In this document: piece after piece, positions 5,346 through 16,216 of the stretch
How positions within the stretch are numbered: position 1 is the stretch's first letter
Layout: each line of letters opens with the position of its first letter
Source: a virus
Virus record (IMG/VR): IMGVR_UViG_3300021170_000041
Span: 1 to 37,885 of that record
Reading direction: 5' to 3' (one strand)
Length of the DNA stretch: 37,885 bases
The notes under the pieces: generated by a model
What the model was told of the DNA's origin: nothing
Seen by the model: the letters and a program-made list of their open reading frames with translations, nothing else
Database searches by the model: none
Program-made: the position numbers and the translations under genes

Positions 5346-6236
5346 ATGAGAGTAACCAATAAATTAGGCCTACCCGGGCCGGTGGTTAGGGCTATTGAGA
5401 AAGACCCGTATAGTAATAGCGGGTCTGACTATACCGCCACTAGCCTTTTAGAGCCCCCTAGGGCTGCCATACTGTCTAAAGATTTGACAGTAGATGCTTC
5501 GGATTGTATAGATTCTTTAGAGGGGCAATCATTGCATTCCATTTTAGAGCGCTCTGGAAAAGAGCTGGCAGAAGAGGGCTATATTGTAGAAAAGCGATTA
5601 TTTGCCATGATAGCAGTAGGCAACAAACTTTATAAGATATCTGCTCAAGTAGATTTATTTGACCCGGCCAAAGGCCTCTTATCCGATTATAAACGAACAT
5701 CAGTTAGTAGTGCTAAAAGGGCCCCAAAGGCAGAACATACTTTACAACTTAGTGTTCAAGCTGAACTATTAAGAAGAAATGGCTTCCATGTAGCATTAGC
5801 ACAGGTAGTGTTGTTTTTAAGGGATCATACAAAGATGAAGTTGGGGATTGACGGATATCCCAAATGTGGTATTATGTGTGTAGCTGTTCCTCTTATTGGA
5901 AGCGATGAGATCAATAAATGGATTGTAGAACGTATTAAGGCCCATGAGGCGGCTAAAAAAGAGTTACCCCTTTGTTCCCCAGAAGAAAGGTGGAGTCGCC
6001 CCACCTTTGCAGTTATGAAGGCCGTTACTGATAAAAAGGCCATTCGAGTATTCGAGAGTCATCAGTTGGCAGCGGCCTTCATTGCGGAAAAGGAGTTGAC
6101 AGCAGTGATCATAGAAAGACCCGGGGAAAGTATTAACTGTAATCGTTACTGCCCGGCTAGATTTGTTTGTGAGCAAGGAAAGAAAGAGACCCAAGTTATC
6201 AGTGTGAAGGATGCTGATGGCTTTATTAAACTATAA
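5346..6236 (+). CDS. PD-(D/E)XK superfamily nuclease (RecB/Cas4-like)
   Basis: A 296-residue protein with nuclease motifs in order: G60-x3-H64, an acidic residue near 82, D103 in QVDLF, and D114-Y-K116 in LLSDYK, followed by a QLSVQAELL helix (about 134-142) where RecB-type nucleases have QxxxY. Four cysteines (C54, then C265, C269 and C275 in CNRYCPARFVC) are placed like the Fe-S cluster cysteines of Cas4 and AddB nucleases. It probably acts as a DNA exonuclease in replication or recombination with the SSB-like protein and DNA polymerase that follow. ATG 5346 has no clear Shine-Dalgarno site. I see no neighbouring cas genes or CRISPR array. Confidence 0.75.
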   Translation: MRVTNKLGLPGPVVRAIEKDPYSNSGSDYTATSLLEPPRAAILSKDLTVDASDCIDSLEGQSLHSILERSGKELAEEGYIVEKRLFAMIAVGNKLYKISAQVDLFDPAKGLLSDYKRTSVSSAKRAPKAEHTLQLSVQAELLRRNGFHVALAQVVLFLRDHTKMKLGIDGYPKCGIMCVAVPLIGSDEINKWIVERIKAHEAAKKELPLCSPEERWSRPTFAVMKAVTDKKAIRVFESHQLAAAFIAEKELTAVIIERPGESINCNRYCPARFVCEQGKKETQVISVKDADGFIKL

Positions 6237-11940: not shown

Positions 11941-12200
11941 TTGATATTGTACAAAAAGTATGGAGATTGGCTAATTCCATTCAGCTTAATCTTACCCAAT
12001 GGCTCTTGTTGGGTATGGCAACGGCAATAGGGGGTCTTACGGTAGCCTTAAAATTACAAGGTTCTAGGCTACATGCTCTTCAGGTGCAATTACTGGAGAA
12101 AAACATTCAAATTACTATTAGTTCAGATGATAATGCCGTTAAGATGGCTAGAGATAAGTTTAATGAGGCTTATGAGGCTTATCTAAGGAATAGATCATGA
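11937..12200 (+). CDS. Small membrane protein with helical tail, possible i-spanin
   Basis: An 87-residue protein. One membrane segment spans about residues 20-40 (WLLLGMATAIGGLTVAL), followed by a charged helical region probably forming a coiled coil. That is the topology of an inner-membrane spanin. The next gene also encodes a small membrane protein, so the two may be a lysis pair, but the second has no lipobox. The main lysis genes lie convergent on the other strand. Confidence 0.45.
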   Translation: MIDIVQKVWRLANSIQLNLTQWLLLGMATAIGGLTVALKLQGSRLHALQVQLLEKNIQITISSDDNAVKMARDKFNEAYEAYLRNRS

Positions 12201-12460
12201 AACTACTAATTATAGTCTTTTTAGTAGCAAATCTAAGCCTAGGAAACGATTCAAAAACTCCATCTGCCTGTGATCTAGCTTTAGATGCCTGCCAGCAGGT
12301 CATAAAGGCTGAGGACATAGAGAATACGCACCTAAAGGCCGATATAAAGGCCTTAGAGGACAAAGTGGTGTCGGAAGAGGGCTCTTCAGCCCTCCCCTGG
12401 TGGGGCTATGTGTTGCTAGGCTTGGCTGGCGGCTTGGTGGTGGGGATTTCGGTTCGGTAA
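12197..12460 (+). CDS. Small secreted or membrane protein with signal peptide and C-terminal membrane segment
   Basis: An 87-residue protein: N-terminal signal-like segment (MKLLIIVFLVANLSLG), two cysteines in CDLALDAC, a helical middle, and a membrane segment around 68-86 (WWGYVLLGLAGGLVVGI). It could be a unimolecular-spanin-like or other lysis-related protein. It is the last gene of the plus-strand operon and overlaps the 3' end of the convergent rhomboid gene by 55 bases. Confidence 0.5.
   Translation: MKLLIIVFLVANLSLGNDSKTPSACDLALDACQQVIKAEDIENTHLKADIKALEDKVVSEEGSSALPWWGYVLLGLAGGLVVGISVR
12377..12394 (-). terminator. Hairpin downstream of the lysis cassette
   Basis: GAGGGCT and AGCCCTC are 7-base arms with a 4-base loop (GAAG on the minus strand), 12 bases beyond the rhomboid stop. 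Only a weak T run (CTTCC) follows, and it lies inside a plus-strand gene, so termination is uncertain. Confidence 0.35.
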
Positions 12461-12990
12461 AGCCTTTTAACCAGCATTAAACCCGTCAGGATGCCTCCTA
12501 TATGGCCGAACACGGCAATCCCCATGAGGAGGGCTAGGGGGGCCATCAAGATCTGCTGTATAAGCCTTATAGCGATAAATAGCATGCCTAGGCAATGATC
12601 TAAAGCAGTGTTCCCATAAACCATACAAGCTCCTGCCGTGGCCCCGAATATGGCCGAGCTGGACCCAATACAGCCTCCCCCCACCACTATCATGTGTAAA
12701 AGTAGGCCTCCCAGGCCACATAGCATATAAAACTCTAAAAACCTCTTGGATCCCAGTTTATTCTCTAAATATACCATAAACGGCAGCCCAAACAGGAAAT
12801 TCCCCATTAAGTGTTCCCAGCTGGCGTGGGCCAGTATGTGGGTGATGATTTGGAATATGGATATGTGGGCGGCAGGGTCATAAGCTAGTTTATCCACTAA
12901 AGTGGGGTCTATACTGCACAAGCACTGCAGCATAACTGCTATAGACAGAAGCAGCAGGGTGGACGGGGACGTGGTGATTATACGCTTCAA
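12406..12990 (-). CDS. Rhomboid-family intramembrane serine protease
   Basis: A 194-residue protein, about six membrane segments. Motifs in order: HASWEHLMGNFLFG (55-68, the H-x4-H-x2-N element of transmembrane helix 2), G109-S-S111-S in IGSSSAIFGATAG as the GxSx serine motif, and H163 in FGHIGGILTG. The catalytic Ser-His dyad is intact. I take TTG 12990 as start because AAGGAG lies about six bases upstream and it overlaps the endolysin stop. A role in lysis, in processing host membrane proteins or in superinfection exclusion is possible; all are inference. Confidence 0.88.
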   Translation of the reverse strand: MKRIITTSPSTLLLLSIAVMLQCLCSIDPTLVDKLAYDPAAHISIFQIITHILAHASWEHLMGNFLFGLPFMVYLENKLGSKRFLEFYMLCGLGGLLLHMIVVGGGCIGSSSAIFGATAGACMVYGNTALDHCLGMLFIAIRLIQQILMAPLALLMGIAVFGHIGGILTGLMLVKRLYRTEIPTTKPPAKPSNT

Positions 12991-13430
12991 GTGGTCTCCT
13001 TAAGGAATAGGGCTTTTTCTTCTTCTCTCCTGGCCAATAGGCCCGAGGACTTATATAACCCTATATAACACCAGAGCGGGAATTGATCCGCTGCCTTAGC
13101 ATATTGTGATAGGTTTATAAACTTTAATAGCCCACTTCTAGCAAGATTGCCTGCGCCTAAATTGTATGTAAAGTCAATGAGGGCTGCGAGTTGATTAGTA
13201 TTGATAGGAGCTTTAACTAACTGCAATATGCGGGGGGGAAGAGTTTCTACGGCCTCTTGTAGTATTTCGTCTGCTTGTTGCTGGCTCCATTCAGTGCCCA
13301 GCTGTATGCTGCCTGTTGAGCCCCATCCTATGGTAACACGGCCGCCCTGGTCCGTGTATGCTTTAAGTCGGCAGCCCTCATACTTCTTAATGAGGCTGGT
13401 TGCTATCTGTATCGCTAGAGTTTGATCCAT
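12987..13430 (-). CDS. GH24 endolysin (T4-lysozyme type muramidase)
   Basis: A 147-residue protein. E18, D27 and T33 in KKYEGCRLKAYTDQG and RVTIGWG have the same spacing (9 and 6) as the catalytic E11, D20 and T26 of T4 lysozyme. It cleaves the glycan strand of peptidoglycan. No signal-anchor segment is seen, so release should depend on the holin encoded just upstream. The start is placed at ATG 13430; a TTG at 13445 is the alternative. The gene overlaps the holin end by 44 bases. Confidence 0.92.
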   Translation of the reverse strand: MDQTLAIQIATSLIKKYEGCRLKAYTDQGGRVTIGWGSTGSIQLGTEWSQQQADEILQEAVETLPPRILQLVKAPINTNQLAALIDFTYNLGAGNLARSGLLKFINLSQYAKAADQFPLWCYIGLYKSSGLLARREEEKALFLKETT

Positions 13431-13797
13431 CCTGCACTTTAACAATTTGGTTGATAAGGGCCTTCAATATGGGGGCTCCAGTGATGCTTTCCATATTCTC
13501 CATACAGCTCTTTAGCTCAGTAATACCGATATACCCAGATAATATCTTAACAATAGGGAATATGTCCCCAGTCAGATATTGCTCTGTTAAGTAGGCAAGC
13601 AATACTACTGACTCGTAGACCAATATCTTTACTACAGTGCGCTTAAGACCACTAGAGGTTATTGCCTCTCCTCTTTTAGCAGCCGCCCACACCCCGCAAA
13701 TAAGATCCACTACAGTCAATACCATTACTACAATTAATACTGGTCTTACTGGCAGGAATAGTAATAATACGGCTAGGAGTAGTGCCCTATAGTTCAT
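13387..13797 (-). CDS. Phage holin (Phage_holin_4_1-like)
   Basis: A 136-residue protein with an N-terminal hydrophobic stretch (residues 5-34), then VVDLICGVWAAAKRGEAITSSG and a further hydrophobic segment (about 57-70). This pattern is typical of the Phage_holin_4 family, where a G-x-x-x-A-x-K-x-G-E motif and an S-S-G-L-x-R-T loop recur. It should form membrane lesions that release the endolysin. Start ATG 13797 overlaps the upstream gene by 11 bases. Confidence 0.82.
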   Translation of the reverse strand: MNYRALLLAVLLLFLPVRPVLIVVMVLTVVDLICGVWAAAKRGEAITSSGLKRTVVKILVYESVVLLAYLTEQYLTGDIFPIVKILSGYIGITELKSCMENMESITGAPILKALINQIVKVQDGSNSSDTDSNQPH

Positions 13798-14290: not shown

Positions 14291-16216
14291 CTAGTGACCT
14301 ACCTTTACAATAGATAAATATGTTTCTTTATTGCTATCAGCAAATATGGTTGTAGACCCGAATCCAGAGGAGGCATAGTAATATAATGCCACTGTTTCTG
14401 ATCCACTTCCTGTGAACTTATACGGGATGCTAAAACTTGCTGAGGCTATGTTCCCCCCTCCAGGGTTTACGCATGCTGCCACAGAATACTGAGATCCGTT
14501 TATAAACAACACTGCCTGGTACTCTGCAGCGGCTACTGGGTTATTAAGCGCTACTGCTGCACTTATCAGGTATATGCCGCCTTTGCCAGATGGAACGGTA
14601 TATTGATTATTGGTATTGCTCCATCCAGAGTCAGTGTCAAAGCTCTGGTTCTGCATGATGGTGATCTTAGTGGCAGCGCCAGTCACTATAGTTTGTGAAG
14701 AGGTGGCATATGTAAAGACTCCCACTGCTGCGTGATATCCCAAGGTTCCAGCGGAGTTGGTGCTATATACTGCATCATTTGCTGGAGATCCAGAGTCATT
14801 TACAAGTGTAACCGTTCCAGAACTATTTACGAGGGAGTCTGCGAAAGTGTATGTAGCTGAATGCGTATCTACATAGTGTTTAGTGGCAGCATCTTGAGCC
14901 GATGTGGGGTCTGTTACGCTGGTGATCTTATTTGAGCCCATGTCAAGTGTAGCATTCATAGTGAATGCATTGGCCAACAGGGCTAAGGTAGACTTGGCCT
15001 GTATGCTTCCTGCGCCAGGGGTGGGTAGAGCATCACTCGTAAGGTATCCAAGCCTGAGAGCCAACTGCGCCGTGACATTTTGTGATAGGTATAGGTTCTC
15101 CGGCCTCTGGCCGGTTGGAAGGCCAATATCTCCGCCCCCATCAGTATTCCATAGGATACTTCCTAAATCATCATCAGTTCCATAGAAGATAATTCTAGTA
15201 CGGAAAGTACCCTGATCTGCCATTAGCAAGTTACCGTTTAACGTTAGTGTGCTATTTCCAGTAGTTGGAGGAGGCGGAGTGTCGGTAGTGAAGTCGCCCG
15301 AGACTAGGTTATGTCCAGTGGCGTTGTTGGTTCCAGTTCTATCAATTACAGTGGTGGCAGAATCCGGAGACTCCCCCATTCTCCACCACGACGTTACGCC
15401 AGGAAAGCTTGTCAAATCGGCTGGATAGCCATTATTATAAAGAGTGGTGACCTGAGCTTGCGACCACTCGGTTGTCGTTGAGATCGCCACTTCATCTATC
15501 TCACCGGGCCAGAATAGATTGGGAGAGCCATTATGGAAAATAGCTCCAATTAGTAGATCAATTCCTGTAGTATTAAAAAACGAGCTTTCCGCTGCTACTT
15601 CAGTCTCTTTAACTGAGTCAACATAAACTCTCGCATACGTTGCTCCATTGGTGAAACAAATATGATGCCAGGTTCCATCTAATGGAGATGAGGTGGTTCC
15701 GACGGTAACGTTATTGGTACTACCGTTACCAGAAAAAAGGCCGGTGATATTGCCGTTCATTGGGCTAACATCAAGGAACCAAGAACGCTGGTTGGTACCG
15801 TAATCTGCCTTACTAATAATGACCGCTTCACTTGACGGTGCAGTTCCTTTAACCCAAAAAGAGATACTAAGTGTGGCCGACGGCCTGAGATTAGCTGCGT
15901 CTGCGACCTCTAAGTATCTACTAATTCCATCTAACGTTAATGATTCAGTACTAAATCTTGTAATAGTCCCATTTGGCCCCAGGGCATTTATATTAGTAGC
16001 CCCGGATCCTGGGAGTAGGTTATTTAATAGAAGAGCATGGGTGGCCGGCAGATACTCAAAATTAATAGTATCCTGGCCTAAATTGCCACTAGCATCGATA
16101 AATAACACCGACCCAGGAGTGCCGCCTATAACAGGTTGGCCGATGGTTCCTCCGCCCCCGCCTCCACCACCTCCTCCGCCTATTGATCCACCAATTCTAT
16201 AGTATGTAGAAGACAT
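14291..16216 (-). CDS. Tail fibre protein with LamG-like and C1q-like domains
   Basis: A 641-residue protein with AAGGA six bases before ATG 16216. Residues 13-23 are eleven consecutive glycines. About 89-262 form a concanavalin/LamG-like domain (YLEVADAANLRPSATLSISFW, WHHICFTNG, then EIDEVAIS). Near 440 is DAATKHYVD, a motif common before fibre C-terminal regions. The last 135 residues resemble a C1q/TNF-like jelly roll (YTVPSGKGGIYLISAAVAL, then AVLFINGSQY). It probably binds host-surface glycans. Confidence 0.78.
   Translation of the reverse strand: MSSTYYRIGGSIGGGGGGGGGGGTIGQPVIGGTPGSVLFIDASGNLGQDTINFEYLPATHALLLNNLLPGSGATNINALGPNGTITRFSTESLTLDGISRYLEVADAANLRPSATLSISFWVKGTAPSSEAVIISKADYGTNQRSWFLDVSPMNGNITGLFSGNGSTNNVTVGTTSSPLDGTWHHICFTNGATYARVYVDSVKETEVAAESSFFNTTGIDLLIGAIFHNGSPNLFWPGEIDEVAISTTTEWSQAQVTTLYNNGYPADLTSFPGVTSWWRMGESPDSATTVIDRTGTNNATGHNLVSGDFTTDTPPPPTTGNSTLTLNGNLLMADQGTFRTRIIFYGTDDDLGSILWNTDGGGDIGLPTGQRPENLYLSQNVTAQLALRLGYLTSDALPTPGAGSIQAKSTLALLANAFTMNATLDMGSNKITSVTDPTSAQDAATKHYVDTHSATYTFADSLVNSSGTVTLVNDSGSPANDAVYSTNSAGTLGYHAAVGVFTYATSSQTIVTGAATKITIMQNQSFDTDSGWSNTNNQYTVPSGKGGIYLISAAVALNNPVAAAEYQAVLFINGSQYSVAACVNPGGGNIASASFSIPYKFTGSGSETVALYYYASSGFGSTTIFADSNKETYLSIVKVGH

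Follow-up and report, generated by a model that had tools for sequence, protein, structure and literature searches.

What does a rhomboid intramembrane protease do in a phage lysis operon? Known lysis pathways rely on holins, endolysins, and spanins or disruptins, and we know of no protease that is an accepted lysis component. The question is raised by a gene in the window analyzed here, an entire IMG/VR record (IMGVR_UViG_3300021170_000041; 37,885 bp) that also carries genes for DNA polymerase A, an exonuclease, a terminase, and tail proteins.

A rhomboid gene at the end of a lysis operon

The end of a minus-strand late operon consists of genes for a tail fiber, an unknown protein, a holin, a GH24 endolysin, and the rhomboid (Table 1). 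The original prediction placed the rhomboid directly after the holin and endolysin in an overlapping operon, and this arrangement was borne out. The holin and endolysin genes are adjacent and overlapping on the same strand, both match their Pfam families (PF05105 and PF00959) above the cut-offs, and a 4-bp overlap joins the rhomboid start to the endolysin stop codon. The open reading frame is real; the sole correction is its strand, minus, which had not been given. Judged by eye, the endolysin lacks an N-terminal hydrophobic anchor and is not of the SAR type, and release of a SAR-type endolysin by the rhomboid was therefore rejected. Separately, the record opens with a run of GGTGGCGGCCC-type repeats (positions 1-100), either Gly/Pro-rich coding sequence or a low-complexity end.

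Table 1. Features of the window, layouts of rhomboid-containing lysis cassettes, and records with a metzincin motif.
Feature	Position or records	Strand	Remarks
SPA, small protein with one N-terminal TM helix	11937-12200	+	i-spanin-like topology; converges on lysis operon
SPB, signal peptide, two conserved cysteines, helical region, C-terminal TM (type I)	12197-12460	+	conserved SPA partner
Rhomboid intramembrane serine protease (predicted)	12406-12990	-	194 aa, six-TM GlpG-type core, TTG start; PF01694, AF2 model, Foldseek/VIA
Catalytic His163 codon (H-I-G-G)	12502-12504	-	His in 14/14 non-truncated lysis-cassette rhomboids
Catalytic Ser111 codon (G109-S-S*-S)	12658-12660	-	Ser in 15/15 lysis-cassette rhomboids
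GH24 phage lysozyme (endolysin)	12987-13445	-	PF00959 E=4.6e-34; likely ATG start 13430
Rhomboid Shine-Dalgarno AAGGAG	12996-13001	-	within 3´ end of endolysin gene; read directly from sequence
Holin (Phage_holin_4_1)	13387-13797	-	PF05105 E=3.8e-10; PHROG 199 holin
Tail-fiber-like protein, upstream of lysis cassette	14291-16216	-	PHROG tail-fiber matches
Type A, holin4-GH24-rhomboid	window, 3300014499_000012		2 records
Type B, holin4-rhomboid-GH24	3300032893_001086, 3300015171_000015, 3300037096_000014		3 records
Type C, holin4-rhomboid-M15 peptidase	3300043540_000524		1 record
Type D, lysin, often short TM protein, XhlA-like protein, then rhomboid			9 records
Metzincin records	L054-L060, L063, L065, L066, L070, L075, L076, L078, L087 (e.g. 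L057:6153-6650)

Family, fold, and active site

The gene product matches PF01694 with E=1.2e-18 (68.1 bits; cut-off 22.6). An AlphaFold2 model built on a 20-sequence alignment reached a pLDDT of 89.8 and a pTM of 0.84, and its top matches in Foldseek and VIA-align were GlpG crystal structures (TM-score ~0.72, Z 20, rmsd 2.7 over 169 residues). A profile search of PDB sequences again returned GlpG. The original prediction had described intact rhomboid motifs, and all are present: G109-S-S111-S and H163-I-G-G, which supply the Ser-His dyad, together with His60 and Asn64 of helix 2. The dyad and the helix-2 His/Asn are conserved across the lysis-cassette relatives that span each site; the catalytic Ser is followed by Ser in the window rhomboid and by Gly in most relatives. 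For the two closest rhomboids, G029 and G036, dN/dS is about 0.18-0.23, with dS near saturation, a ratio indicative of purifying selection. With this selection and the predicted GlpG fold, the rhomboid identity is well beyond chance.

The protein resembles the GlpG proteins of E. coli and H. influenzae (PDB 6pj5 and 2nr9) in its six-TM core, Ser-His dyad, and helix-2 His/Asn. Unlike them, it is encoded by a phage within a lysis operon, lacks the N-terminal cytoplasmic domain, and is ~19-20% identical in sequence. As a GlpG orthologue it was rejected, at 28 bits against the TIGR04239 equivalog cut-off of 250. Rhombosortases (TIGR03902) belong to the same superfamily and are also minimal rhomboids, and the relatives score somewhat above GlpG on that model, but the window (20.8 bits) and even the best relative (36.1 bits) fall well short of the equivalog cut-off of 84. 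Since it lies below both cut-offs, we regard the window protein as a distinct rhomboid. The expectation that rhomboids are unusual in phages also held: they are rare in described phages, and tblastn with the window rhomboid gave no match in 50,697 GenBank phage records. A sequence search of 72,556 plasmids likewise gave no match.

Rhomboids in the lysis cassettes of related phages

We sought relatives in IMG/VR with terminase, holin, and rhomboid profiles. All are metagenomic contigs, in which the absence of a gene from a fragment is uninformative. A rhomboid lies inside the lysis cassette of 15 distinct phage records, the window included, in four layouts (Table 1). The predicted association with lysis genes thus stands, whereas the exact order holin-endolysin-rhomboid recurs in only one other record; more often, the rhomboid comes before the endolysin or after a holin-like protein of another kind. 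As for the possibility, raised with the original prediction, that close relatives might all lack the gene, it is present in these 15 records, yet its distribution is patchy, and many relatives with normal-looking lysis genes do not carry it.

Four classes of endolysin are found beside the rhomboid: GH24, Amidase_2, glucosaminidase, and M15. Among type D phages, the lysin is an Amidase_2 above the cut-off in L130/L151, L155, and L160, a homologue of the L130 Amidase_2 that scores below the cut-off in L128/L153, and a glucosaminidase in L152 and L154. No endolysin domain was recognized beside the rhomboid in three of the nine type D records (L126/L158, L156, and G054), which counts against a lysis role; in G054, the neighboring gene is interrupted by the contig end. 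The XhlA-like protein of this group is a coiled-coil/TM protein of ~73 aa, so labeled for its topology only, and a Pfam search gave no match. A conserved hydrophobic protein of 51-54 aa (IGALKVIARYTPWKWDD) is encoded between the lysin and XhlA-like genes in L152 (5623-5778), L154 (5626-5790), and L156 (5625-5786), and is a possible holin of this second phage group.

Because the ends of late operons are a frequent entry point for morons, operon position alone can mislead. The rhomboid could be such a moron, inserted at a tolerant site and modifying or degrading a host inner-membrane protein for takeover or superinfection exclusion, a reading we consider possible, if unlikely. The patchy distribution would fit, and it also counts against a lysis role, the gene being dispensable at the family level. 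Rhomboids of other phages point the same way, as they sit among unrelated genes. The Stenotrophomonas phages DLP3 (gp93) and DLP5 (DLP05_096) resemble the window in encoding a rhomboid, but theirs lies outside a recognized lysis context, among hypothetical, sugar, and methyltransferase genes ~8 kb before terL, with no annotated holin or endolysin beside it (PMC7326821). Against a moron, four records (types B and C) place the rhomboid between holin and endolysin, so that it is not confined to the operon end, and its linkage to the cassette has been kept over deep divergence and across swapped endolysin classes. Since the gene was kept next to exchanged endolysins, and at either of two sites within the cassette, a role at the lysis stage is likelier than a chance moron. 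The lysis role is also favored by a survey of 21 other rhomboid-bearing viral records for GH24 and amidase genes, which found neither near the rhomboid (0/21), the four matches being about 18 kb or more away; a profile search found no holin-4 or lysozyme within 5 kb of the rhomboid in other rhomboid-bearing records.

The phylogenies bear on the age of this linkage. In the rhomboid tree, the 15 lysis-cassette rhomboids split, with support of 97/87, from those of other phages (10 sequences) and of Omnitrophota (16), a separation that does not prove a single origin because one bacterial phylum was sampled. In the terminase tree, rhomboid carriers are divided between the window clade (100/99) and a separate lineage, G029/G030; a rhomboid-less clade of phages with a metzincin (see below) stands apart from both. 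The linkage of rhomboid and lysis genes is therefore either old or repeatedly selected. Co-inheritance of rhomboid and holin was not supported: the closest holin to that of the window is in G036 (64%), and the closest rhomboid, by score and tree, is in G006. A terminase search of GTDB contigs returned one distantly related phage-like contig (L095, PLNN01000002.1; 40% identity), binned in a fen Candidatus Omnitrophota MAG. A profile search found no rhomboid match in that MAG, and the terminase match is too weak a hint for naming a host.

Convergent small proteins and envelope proteases

In most holin-4 phages, whether the rhomboid is present or absent, the genes for two small proteins, SPA and SPB, converge on the lysis operon; in the window, the 3´ ends of the SPB and rhomboid genes overlap by 55 bp. 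SPA is predicted to have one N-terminal TM helix and a polar tail. Like Rz/Rz1 and unimolecular spanins, SPA and SPB are small membrane proteins converging on lysis genes, and SPA is i-spanin-like in its predicted topology. Unlike them, SPB has no lipobox ([LVI][ASTVI][GAS]C was absent from the signal-peptide end in 14 homologues) and has two conserved cysteines, of which there are none in the periplasmic part of surveyed u-spanins. We found no credible lipoprotein ORF within the window. SPA and SPB are a possible non-canonical spanin pair; a spanin survey has suggested that type I inner-membrane proteins might act as spanins (PMC6139136).

Next to SPB, other phages carry a different protease. 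In 15 rhomboid-less records (several near-identical), the gene directly adjacent to that of SPB encodes a putative lipoprotein. It carries a metzincin motif, which in most of these records reads HExxHxxGxxH, and its Pfam M10/M57 matches are weak. It is possible that this protein is a phage-encoded outer-membrane metalloprotease near the lysis genes. Among phages with SPA and SPB, five have the rhomboid without the metzincin, 15 have the metzincin without the rhomboid, and two (L080 and L082) have neither. Strict mutual exclusion or substitution was rejected, as three type D phages (L126/L158, L156, and G054) carry both proteases; with these three and the two that have neither, a rhomboid/metzincin swap is a lead and not a rule. 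In one further phage, L083, the gene directly after the holin, where an endolysin or rhomboid would otherwise lie, encodes a ClpP-like protease (5389-6012; PF00574, E 1.1e-7) that has a signal peptide.

SPB is a possible substrate of the rhomboid. The protease might cut the C-terminal TM of SPB and free its periplasmic domain, which with SPA would form a non-canonical spanin, the metzincin doing the same from the outer membrane elsewhere. We think this improbable. The type I topology of SPB is typical of rhomboid substrates, no credible lipoprotein ORF was seen in the window, and the five rhomboid-only and 15 metzincin-only phages would fit. However, L080 and L082 have SPA and SPB with neither protease, the three phages with both gave no SPB match in the sequence examined, and those metzincin phages that were placed on the terminase tree form one clade, so that the split between rhomboid and metzincin may reflect common descent. 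Neither SPA nor SPB turned up in the XhlA-like group, and SPB as an obligate rhomboid partner was rejected, since each occurs without the other.

A putative role in lysis

We favor the explanation that this GlpG-type rhomboid is an accessory lysis factor that cuts a membrane protein, with a probability of roughly 0.58. The protease, predicted to be catalytically competent, would be made late from the lysis operon, together with the holin and endolysin, would reside in the host inner membrane, and would make its cut near the periplasmic side of a single-pass membrane protein. Most likely, this would help to time or complete envelope breakdown. Protease activity, late expression, and a lysis role are what we infer for this protein, and the putative lysis function seems likely. 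The original prediction suggested a membrane lysis regulator, a host membrane protein, or a surface receptor as possible targets. Candidate substrates would include adjacent single-TM phage proteins (SPB for the holin-4 phages and the XhlA-like protein for type D), as well as the holin and host envelope proteins. No candidate common to all 15 phages is visible, and this points to a host substrate, or else to a different neighboring phage protein in each group. Bacterial rhomboids are described as processing TatA (PMC3712462) and as clearing orphan membrane proteins (PMC7232013); thus, the phage enzyme could plausibly either activate a membrane protein specifically or remove it.

A stronger version, in which intramembrane proteolysis is a dedicated lysis step, the rhomboid cut triggers or completes envelope disruption, and a metzincin or a secreted ClpP-like protease plays a similar role in relatives, is one we hold only tentatively. 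A role outside lysis is also conceivable. Many defense effectors are membrane proteins, and a membrane protease would suit such targets; the rhomboid could inactivate membrane-anchored abortive-infection effectors, delaying premature lysis or membrane collapse. The late position in a lysis operon fits counter-defense poorly, and there was no PADLOC match, itself weak evidence since PADLOC lists defense and not counter-defense genes. We consider an anti-defense role very improbable.

A search of open-access literature found no report linking rhomboids to phage lysis. The protease family itself is known; its setting in the lysis cassette is real and new. As the rhomboid has stayed through rearrangements and changes of lysis enzyme, cleavage of membrane proteins may be part of lysis, and thus an unrecognized part of how these phages exit the host. 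The cassette rhomboid offers a concrete gene, mutable at one catalytic Ser, for asking whether proteolysis joins lysis. The natural substrates of bacterial-type rhomboids are poorly known, and lysis-cassette rhomboids would give them a defined, phage-encoded setting.

Finally, the rhomboids of the window and of several relatives (L051, L086, and L091) match PHROG 16931 (E 2e-5 to 3e-9), a phage family of unknown function. It differs from the rhomboids described here in that it is not named as a rhomboid and has no recorded lysis context, but from these sequence matches PHROG 16931 appears to be a phage rhomboid family.
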